Under the pieces are notes generated by a model. The model searched no databases and was not told where the DNA came from. It saw only the letters and a list, made by a program, of their open reading frames with translations. A stretch of 64,000 bases of DNA from Sphingomonas koreensis (GTDB taxonomy: Bacteria > Pseudomonadota > Alphaproteobacteria > Sphingomonadales > Sphingomonadaceae): positions 248,001-312,000 of the forward strand of contig NZ_PGEN01000001.1 in NCBI RefSeq assembly GCF_002797435.1. Reading direction: 5' to 3'. The translations under genes and the position numbers were made by a program. Positions 1-2,019 of the stretch are shown in pieces. Positions within the stretch are counted from its first letter, which is position 1. Each line of letters opens with the position of its first letter.

Positions 1-278
1 ACCTGGCGGTTCACTTCATCGACCAGTTCGGCGCGCCGCTTCCAGCTCGTGCTCGCCGGTGTCGGCTCGCTCTTCCGCAACGATTTGGGGATGCGATAGG
101 GCGATTCCCCGACCTTTGAGCAGATGACGACCTCTTCCTCGCTTGAGGCCTTCGGGCACTGATCGTCACCATAAAGAAGCACGCTGCGCACCCGCTGCGG
201 CGGCGCATTGTCGTCGTCTGCCTCTTGCGCAAGCACCGGGGTCGCGGCCAGCGCCGCCAGCATCAGAACTCGGATCAT
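1..278 (-). CDS. small secreted protein of unknown function (3' end outside window)
   Basis: Partial gene: the start is inside the window and the end lies before base 1. The ATG at 278 has a GGGAG ribosome binding site upstream. The 92 visible residues open with a Sec signal peptide (hydrophobic residues about 3-16, likely cleavage near VLA-Q). An acidic stretch follows, with two cysteines in DDQCPK and VVICSK, then SPYRIPKSLR. The two cysteines could form a disulfide in the periplasm (inference). From memory, small secreted proteins of this style are common in sphingomonads. I recognise no enzymatic motif and assign no function. Confidence 0.7.
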   Translation of the reverse strand, partial: MIRVLMLAALAATPVLAQEADDDNAPPQRVRSVLLYGDDQCPKASSEEEVVICSKVGESPYRIPKSLRKSEPTPASTSWKRRAELVDEVNRQ

Positions 279-369
279 CACGCAACTCCCGTCAGGCACA
301 CGCCTGACATAGGTATCGCATCGGGCCGCATTAAGGCCGCCTGAACCGTGATCGGCTGCCAATTTGAGA

Positions 370-388
370 TTTACCCCAAACGGGTGAA
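370..388. promoter_or_regulatory. operator-like dyad 1 upstream of the HTH-DAHP synthase gene
   Basis: Inverted repeat TTTACCC-N5-GGGTGAA, arms matching at 6 of 7 positions. It lies 47 bp before the ATG at 436 and shares its 19-bp layout with a second dyad 36 bp downstream. A possible -35-like TTGAGA (364-369) and a weak -10-like TTATCG (389-394) flank it. A protein bound here would block that promoter if it is real. Confidence 0.5.
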
Positions 389-405
389 TTTATCGCTTGC
401 ACCCA

Positions 406-424
406 TTTACCCGGCGGGGGTAAG
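406..424. promoter_or_regulatory. operator-like dyad 2 upstream of the HTH-DAHP synthase gene
   Basis: Inverted repeat TTTACCC-N5-GGGTAAG; the inner six bases TTACCC/GGGTAA are perfect. It ends 11 bp before the ATG at 436. The half-site and the 5-bp spacer equal those of dyad 1, and the two centres are 36 bp apart, so both lie on nearly the same face of the helix. The natural candidate ligand is the HTH domain encoded just downstream (inference). Confidence 0.5.
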
Positions 425-435
425 GCGCTCGCACC

Positions 436-2019
436 ATGACGACATTAGCTGGTTCGAAAATCCGCCGCTTCCGCGAAGAACGCTCCCTCTCCCGCGCCGC
501 CTTCGGCGCATGGTTCGACACGCCCGGTTCGACCGTTCAGGGCTGGGAAGAGGATGGCAAGCGCGCTTCGCCCGCCGTGCTCAACCAGATCGCCGCCAAC
601 GGCATCGCGCATCATCAGGACTGGTACGTCCATGTCCGTAATTTGGAGCAGGCCATGGGATGGACCCCCGACAGCTGGAAATCGGCCGAAGCGCGCCAGC
701 TCCCGATTTACCCCGATACCGCTACGCTCGCTGCCGCGACCACCCAGCTTTCAAGCTTCCCCCCGCTGGTGTTCGCCGGCGAAGCGCGTGCGCTGACGCA
801 GGAACTGGCCAAAGTCGCACGCGGCGAGGCCTTCCTGCTGCAGGGCGGTGACTGCGCAGAGAGCTTCGCGGAGTTCCACCCCAATAACATCCGCGATACC
901 TTCCGCGTCATCCTCCAGATGGCAGTCGTGCTGACCTTTGCGTCGAAGCTGCCGACGGTGAAGGTCGGCCGCATGGCCGGCCAGTTCGCCAAGCCGCGCT
1001 CGGCTGATACCGAGACGATCAATGGTGTCGAGTTGCCCAGCTACCGCGGCGACAATGTCAACGACATTGCCTTCACCCCAGAAGCACGCATCCCCGATCC
1101 GCAGCGGATGATCCAGGGCTACAGCCAGTCCGCCGCGACGCTCAACCTGCTGCGCGCCTTCGCCAGCGGTGGCTACGCGAACCTGCATCAGGTCCACAAA
1201 TGGACGCTCGACTTCATGGGCAAGAGCCCCTGGAGCGCCAAGTTCGCCGATGTCGCCGACCGGATCGGCGAGGCGCTGGACTTCATGCAGGCCTGCGGGA
1301 TCGACGCCGACAGCGTCCCCCAGCTCAAGGGCACCGATTTCTACACCAGCCACGAAGCGCTCCTGCTCCCCTATGAGCAGGCGCTGACCCGGCAGGATTC
1401 GCTCACCGGTGACTGGTACGACACCAGCGCCCACATGCTCTGGATCGGCGACCGCACCCGGTTCGACGGATCGGCGCATGTCGAGTTCCTGCGCGGTATC
1501 GGCAACCCGATCGGCATGAAGTGCGGACCCAGTCTCGAGCCCGACGCGCTGTTGCGCCTGCTCGACACGCTGAATCCCGCACGTACACCGGGCCGCCTAA
1601 CCCTCATCACCCGCTATGGCCATGACAAGATCGAGGACGGTCTGCCCAAGCTCGTCCGCGCGGTGAAGCGCGAGGGGCATCCGGTGGTGTGGAGTTGTGA
1701 CCCGATGCACGGCAACGTCGTCAAGGCGGCCAATGGCTACAAGACCCGCCCGTTCGAGCGCATCCTGGCCGAGGTCCGCGGTTTCTTCGCCGTGCATCGC
1801 GCCGAGGGCACCTATGCCGGCGGCATCCATGCCGAGATGACCGGACAGAACGTGACCGAGTGCACCGGCGGCATGATCGACGTCAGCGAGCACGACCTGG
1901 CCGATCGCTATCACACCCATTGCGACCCGCGCCTCAACGCGGGGCAGAGCCTCGAGCTGGCCTTCCTGCTGGCCGAGATGCTCAACGAAGAGATGGCGGA
2001 GCGGCGCAAGGCCGCTTGA
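436..2019 (+). CDS. class II DAHP synthase with N-terminal XRE-like HTH domain
   Basis: 3-Deoxy-D-arabino-heptulosonate-7-phosphate synthase condenses phosphoenolpyruvate and erythrose 4-phosphate, the first step of the shikimate pathway, in the cytosol. The class II body starts at Met74 ([10 protein letters not shown]) and carries [11 protein letters not shown] (residues 134-144, Cys140) and [11 protein letters not shown]. From Met74 it is 454 residues, the normal family length. Residues 1-73 are extra and look like an XRE/Cro helix-turn-helix ([36 protein letters not shown]). No stop separates the two parts. The ATG at 436 has only a weak ribosome binding site, whereas the internal ATG at 655 has GGAG at 645-648 with ideal 6-nt spacing. 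Two products, a fusion and a standard enzyme, are therefore possible (inference). Two dyads precede the gene. Confidence 0.93.
645..657 (+). promoter_or_regulatory. internal ribosome binding site and ATG for the DAHP synthase body
   Basis: GGAG at 645-648, six nucleotides, then ATG at 655-657, in frame with the upstream HTH coding sequence. The enzyme made from this ATG has the usual class II DAHP synthase N-terminus. The site decides whether the HTH part is fused to all or only some of the protein. Confidence 0.5.

Follow-up and report, generated by a model that had tools for sequence, protein, structure and literature searches.

A DAHP synthase gene that begins with a helix-turn-helix domain

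In a stretch of 64,000 nucleotides from Sphingomonas koreensis (contig NZ_PGEN01000001.1 of assembly GCF_002797435.1, forward-strand positions 248,001 to 312,000; hereafter the window), an open reading frame (ORF) on the forward strand at 436..2019, preceded by an in-frame stop at 421-423, remains open for 527 amino acids. Its long product joins an N-terminal helix-turn-helix (HTH) domain and linker (residues 1-73; 436..654) to a class II 3-deoxy-D-arabino-heptulosonate 7-phosphate (DAHP) synthase, and we argue below that this protein (HTH-DAHP synthase) probably represses its own gene. A preliminary description of the same DNA had proposed the in-frame joining of an HTH domain to a complete class II enzyme, and the open frame, the domain matches, the homologues and the substitution patterns all bear this out.

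The enzyme part (residues 76-513; 661..1974) matched PF01474 with 695.9 bits (cut-off, 27) over positions 1-438 of the 438-position model. The score against TIGR01358 was 699.1 (cut-off, 614.7), which identifies a class II DAHP synthase over its full length. The closest solved structure by sequence was 5uxm (667.7 bits), i.e., the type IIA DAHP synthase PA2843 of Pseudomonas aeruginosa, and residues 74-518 of the query aligned with residues 8-450 of 5uxm with a single 2-residue gap. The two enzyme domains thus align over nearly their whole length, the inserted helices among the parts covered. The solved PA2843 chain (453 amino acids) aligns only from query residue 74 onward and, unlike the Sphingomonas protein, has no HTH domain. 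The type IIA features set out in PMC6435475, i.e., the inserted helices alpha2a/alpha2b and a short N-terminal extension, were present in this alignment. The product of the ORF was the sole DAHP synthase found in the 4.4-Mb genome, where no class I DAHP synthase was found. The residues that we take to bind metal and substrates in the Mycobacterium tuberculosis enzyme (Cys87, His369, Glu411, Asp441, Arg126, Lys133, Lys306, and Arg337) correspond, as read by eye from the structure alignments, to C140, H425, E467, D497, R179, K186, K362, and R393, which were invariant in 39 of 39 sequences.

The N-terminal part was modeled by AlphaFold2 with a mean predicted local distance difference test score (pLDDT) of 97 as five helices (residues 4-15, 20-25, 31-39, 46-54, and 60-64). 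This is the five-helix fold of Cro/C1-type (XRE) domains, the type named in the preliminary description, with the HTH at helices 2 and 3, and the predicted recognition helix comprises residues 31-39 (526-552). The best fold matches were mostly XRE-type proteins, several of them in complexes with DNA, and repressor-operator complexes of phage P22 c2 ranked among the best. The P22 c2 and 434 repressor domains (3jxb, 2r1j, 2or1) have a sequence identity of 13-18% to the domain that is here fused to an enzyme. It should be noted that the profile scores stayed below the curated thresholds: HTH_31 matched residues 6-53 of the isolated piece with an E-value of 1.4e-4 and 22.6 bits, below the Pfam cut-off of 27, HTH_3 scored 14.8 bits against a cut-off of 23, and a profile of the HTH domain had no sequence match in the PDB.

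The fusion is real and conserved. Among 120 homologues listed from 8000 scored, 64 covered 99-100% of the query, HTH domain included, which argues that the joining is not a chance one. A search with residues 1-78 alone, restricted to proteins of comparable overall length, gave 66 matches among 123 candidates, and all 66 had a DAHP synthase domain. For comparison at the DNA level we used 38 fused loci, i.e., the window, 30 genome contigs (L002-L031) and seven further genomes; because several of them are close relatives, counts over this set are not independent. Their median ratio of nonsynonymous to synonymous differences (pN/pS) was 0.26 for the HTH part and 0.22 for the enzyme part (in-frame figures; 674/703 pairs within the divergence filter), whereas the other two frames over the HTH part gave 1.37 and 2.02, so codon statistics mark 436-654 as coding. 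An ATG stands at the start of the HTH part in all 38 loci. Thirty-two of 65 columns were invariant in 25 aligned HTH domains, and the recognition-helix residues T33, Q35, G36, W37, and E38 were identical in all 25. Comparison thus shows the HTH domain, predicted to be of DNA-binding type, to be a conserved and selected part of the protein. Two database entries of 454-455 amino acids (P0063 and P0068) begin at the internal methionine; public annotation therefore probably hides the HTH domain in some genomes, an annotation trap for anyone relying on such entries.

A palindrome at the promoter of the fused gene

A 17-bp palindrome with the sequence TTACCC-N5-GGGTAA lies at 407-423 (spacer GGCGG) and ends 12 nt before ATG436. 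We regard it as a candidate proximal operator (O1). A second, distal candidate (O2; TTACCC-CAAAC-GGGTGA, 371..387) contains one mismatch and starts 36 bp before O1. With up to two mismatches, the proximal palindrome was found in 38 of 38 fused loci (28 exact, seven with one mismatch, and three with two), where it ends 9-12 nt before the ATG of the HTH part. It was found at this threshold in none of 50 unfused orthologues, in which a longer stretch was searched; their best matches had three (4 loci), four (14), five (31), or six (1) mismatches. In a shuffle control, 37 of 7600 dinucleotide-shuffled upstream regions reached two mismatches. Across the fused loci, symmetry is seen in the arms but not in the spacer: the arm positions pair in 30-38 of the 38 loci, the two outer spacer positions in nine and eight. 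In one locus (L021) both arms are altered together (TTACTC..GAGTAA), which retains the palindrome. In 22 of the 38 loci there is also a second site, with no more than one mismatch, that starts 32-36 bp before O1. Two loci, L014 and L018, have in common a proximal site with two mismatches and a half-decayed copy 65 bp upstream, a pattern that is possibly one of operator turnover.

Judged by its position, TTGCAC at 397..402 (+) is a −35-like element, and in 32 of the 38 fused loci a TTGC starts 9 or 10 nt ahead of the proximal site. The candidate −10 position, GTAAGG at 420..425 (+), was placed by spacing only, lies 17 nt after TTGCAC, matches the consensus poorly and overlaps the right arm of O1. 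If TTGC is the −35 box, O1 would extend over both the spacer and the −10 region, with transcription starting near the ATG. On the other side of O2, which its promoter region faces, lies a divergent ORF (3-362, minus strand; 120 amino acids, open at the window edge), presumably for a secreted protein.

In the fused genomes searched, the palindrome is essentially unique to this promoter

O1 is the sole exact copy of the palindrome in this genome (control, 0). Of the 397 genomes of the family scanned, 22 contained the exact palindrome and eight had an HTH-DAHP synthase gene; all eight belong to the genus group of the window, of which 11 genomes were sampled. In seven of the eight there was exactly one exact site, always at the HTH-DAHP synthase promoter, while in G245, the eighth, the site at that promoter has one mismatch. 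A scan of the seven genomes with one mismatch allowed (G245, without an exact site, was left out) gave 13 sites, 12 of them at the HTH-DAHP synthase promoter and the only off-target one in G311, whereas a reversed control pattern gave 23. A longer pattern with up to two mismatches allowed yielded three sites in this genome, the third at 2120671, compared to seven for its reversed control. The exact palindrome also occurred in 15 of 389 unfused genomes (16 sites). Ten of these sites were inspected: four, all from a single genus group, lie at the end of the same gene, three have near-identical surroundings, and three are in or between unrelated ORFs. From these ten, we judged the exact sites in unfused genomes to be accidental.

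Comparison thus shows the palindrome to be essentially unique to the HTH-DAHP synthase promoter in the fused genomes searched. A regulon for HTH-DAHP synthase was considered and rejected, since good palindromes are essentially confined to its own promoter. The preliminary suggestion that the fusion ties flux into the shikimate pathway to transcription accordingly holds in a narrower form: the HTH domain appears to be of DNA-binding type, and its predicted target is a single promoter, that of its own gene.

Distribution of fused and unfused genes

The best 80 of 593 relatives comprised 30 fused and 50 unfused genes; this sample was ranked by likeness to the fused query and does not give a prevalence. 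A profile of the HTH domain matched all 30 fused loci but gave no match in any of the 50 unfused loci within flanks of up to 3 kb, so in the latter the HTH is not simply a separate neighboring gene. Orthologues that start at the position of Met74, which according to the preliminary description could count against the fusion, thus do exist (50 of 80), but the fusion stands, as they lack both the HTH domain and the palindrome. The names on the fused loci are Sphingomonas, Stakelama, and Sphingosinithalassobacter. In a weakly supported tree of 88 DAHP synthase sequences, the fused state requires three changes, and a single origin is still conceivable.

A parallel fusion to NAD+ synthetase and the origin of the HTH domain

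In other genera of the family, longer ORFs begin with a related HTH domain. It was found in 59 of 397 genomes, none of which also had HTH-DAHP synthase. The 22 loci that were read (L094-L115) have one common architecture, with the HTH start at about 1495-1501 or on the reverse complement. Pfam identified carbon-nitrogen hydrolase and NAD synthase domains in the four of the 22 loci searched, and the three loci compared with NCBIfam scored above its cut-off for NAD(+) synthase; the second fusion is, by these matches, an HTH domain on glutamine-dependent NAD+ synthetase (HTH-NadE). Its HTH domain is 41-51% identical to that of the window (12 aligned). A different palindrome, GTATCC-N5-GGATAC, ends 8-12 nt before the ATG in all 22 HTH-NadE loci (21 exact, one with one mismatch), and neither palindrome occurs within two mismatches upstream of the other fusion gene. 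A different palindrome at the same place indicates that the sequence of the site is tied to the type of HTH domain. Within 300 nt of unfused NadE genes, the best match had four or five mismatches in six of seven loci. The seventh (G356) had two mismatches, in a site ending 8 nt before the profile match. The NadE gene of the S. koreensis genome itself coincides with no HTH match. A second exact NadE-type site was present in seven of the 22 HTH-NadE genomes, six times in one kind of ORF (L145-L149 and L151), which we take to be tldD-like and in which the site presumably encodes GILKGY, and once inside another ORF. These second sites look like chance or coding coincidence.

No third enzyme partner was seen in the 397 family genomes or in 385 genomes of the class. 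The class scan matched six genomes, four of them of Sphingomonadaceae and two weak ones outside that family. Standalone relatives of the HTH domain were found as open frames of 77 and 85 codons in G036 and G340 (L132:1480-1701 and L152:1746-1973), near genes that match phage DNA primase families (phrog_510). Given these neighbors and the fold match to phage repressors, the HTH domain was probably taken from a phage regulator, although two cases are few. In L132 the standalone HTH gene is preceded by a dyad of another sequence (AATAATCAAG ... CTTGATTATT, identified by eye).

An internal start codon conserved in most fused genes

The preliminary description had contrasted a weak ribosome-binding site at ATG436 with a good one at the internal ATG655, and this is correct. 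ATG436 is preceded by AAGG at 10 nt, and a 4-nt Shine-Dalgarno (SD) core stands before the start of the long product in just 12 of 38 fused loci. ATG655 (655..657; Met74), the candidate start of an enzyme-only product of 454 amino acids, is preceded by GGAG (645..648) with a 6-nt spacer. When any in-frame ATG in the six codons that precede the conserved Trp76 is counted, the internal start is present in 32 of the 38 fused loci. In 27 of these 32, GGAG stands at exactly −10 to −7, compared to none of 452 other Met codons of fused genes. In the unfused orthologues, 42 of 50 have an ATG in the equivalent stretch, but GGAG-N6 precedes none of the 42. Under a looser rule (4-nt SD core at a spacing of 4-12), an SD sequence precedes 30 of 32 internal ATGs of fused genes and 19 of 42 ATGs of unfused orthologues, compared to 109 of the 452 other Met codons. 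The strong SD sequence is thus a feature of fused genes. The G at −10, a wobble base, is kept in 28 of 32 loci although the residue encoded there may be L, V, T, A, M, or S; G makes up 37% of third bases overall (6288 of 17180 codons). The GGAG bases, wobble base included, vary far less than the neighboring bases, and a different SD sequence is found at about the same place in L029 and in L017/L023. A reading of the protein alignment in which Met74 is a chance codon was overturned for most loci by these counts at the DNA level.

Conservation of the ATG together with GGAG therefore goes beyond coincidence and suggests selection for internal initiation, and we consider it rather probable that the internal start is used. 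The start is not, however, universal: the ATG is missing in six of 38 fused loci (L008, L011, L021, L022, L086, and L087), which weighs against a general role and implies that the second product cannot be essential everywhere. The proposal that one gene makes both a fusion and a normal enzyme is hence retained in the form of two products that are likely but dispensable. The most serious competing explanation is that the internal SD-ATG has no meaningful product and is an inherited start that has not decayed, the enzyme existing as the fusion alone. The six loci without the ATG, which need four changes on the tree, agree with this, as does the place at which most unfused orthologues have their ATG. 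In HTH-NadE, moreover, the old start Met is kept in 20 of 21 genes and an SD core before it in just 10 (control, 27 of 203). On the other hand, GGAG-N6-ATG was seen at this place in fused genes alone, the GGAG bases are nearly constant down to the wobble position, and L029 and L017/L023 have another SD sequence at about the same place. We therefore regard the inherited start as a less likely, though still serious, account than internal initiation.

Proposed mechanism of autogenous repression

Taken together, the comparisons make it probable that HTH-DAHP synthase represses its own transcription and does not control a regulon. In the proposed mechanism, two HTH domains of one enzyme oligomer would bind O1 and so cover the promoter between TTGC, the −35-like element, and the presumed −10 position, which would block RNA polymerase. 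A tetramer with four HTH domains would suit two palindromes and could hold O2 as well; PMC6435475 describes PA2843 as a homotetramer that is inhibited by Trp alone. The transcript probably starts close to ATG436, and being near-leaderless would explain the weak ribosome-binding site of the long product. Initiation at Met74 on the same mRNA would probably yield enzyme subunits without the HTH domain, and their incorporation into the oligomers would set how many HTH domains each oligomer has. With less assurance, we propose that an end product, most likely Trp, binds the enzyme part and alters its grip on DNA, which would couple feedback inhibition to repression. Trp as this signal or co-repressor is a tentative guess from the likeness to PA2843. 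No Trp repressor was found in this genome (TyrR was not searched for), which leaves room for another control.

The protein might instead activate its own promoter, or do both depending on ligand, through O2 upstream of the −35-like element. The presence of such an O2 in 22 of 38 fused loci is in line with this, but 16 loci lack it, and the universal site is O1, which overlaps the presumed −10 position; activation is accordingly improbable. More doubtful still is that the HTH domain is a structural appendage that no longer binds DNA and that the palindrome serves a free-standing regulator. A structural role has been proposed for the Xre-like N-terminus of the fosfomycin epoxidase HppE. HppE and MPnS, both enzymes with an Xre-like domain, are among the fold matches, and the Pfam scores of the HTH domain below the cut-offs would fit such a role. 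The palindrome, however, goes with the fusion in every locus, is essentially restricted to its promoter and shifts in sequence with the type of HTH domain while its place and 6-5-6 geometry stay constant, and the five recognition-helix residues are invariant. That Met74 is the true start of the gene, with 436-654 untranslated, as the better SD sequence before ATG655, the start of the unfused orthologues and entries such as P0063 and P0068 might suggest, is hardly credible in view of the pN/pS of 0.26 in that frame alone, the invariant HTH columns, the ATG at the HTH start in all fused loci and the confident HTH fold.

Comparison with known systems and implications

DAHP synthase is the gate to the aromatic amino acids. 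In E. coli the DAHP synthase genes, and with them the first step of this pathway, are likewise under repressor control, but by separate regulator proteins, TrpR and TyrR. According to PMC5343134, both regulators show high conservation across many groups of gammaproteobacteria and are missing from other classes. Enzymes that are also transcriptional repressors within one protein are already known, such as PutA and BirA, and are termed trigger enzymes in the review PMC6978683. In HTH-DAHP synthase, too, a catalytic domain and a domain predicted to bind DNA lie in one polypeptide, and the palindrome at its own promoter points, by comparison, to control of its own pathway, as with BirA and PutA. 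It differs from them in that the sole target found is its own promoter and in that the fused gene retains an internal start from which the plain enzyme could be made. BirA and PutA also have other folds and belong to other pathways. In the literature searched, which left out most subscription journals, we recognized no description of a DAHP synthase or an NAD+ synthetase fused to an HTH domain and controlled through a self-operator; such fusions with a dedicated self-operator are new relative to that literature.

The two comparable fusions with different operators hint at how phage regulators enter metabolism. It is an even chance, in our estimate, that a small phage-type HTH domain serves in Sphingomonadaceae as a plug-in module for autoregulation, attached in frame ahead of the old start of at least two pathway enzymes, each with its own 17-bp 6-5-6 operator at the corresponding promoter position and, in effect, a single genomic target. 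In HTH-DAHP synthase the strong internal start retained at the old start position would then let one mRNA give both a repressor-enzyme and a plain enzyme, whose mixing in the oligomer would tune repression. If the proposed mechanism is correct, the gate enzyme would be its own dedicated repressor, the shortest feedback circuit of one protein, one operator and one gene, and it would offer a clean system for studying how the ligand state of an allosteric enzyme is transferred to a fused DNA-binding domain.
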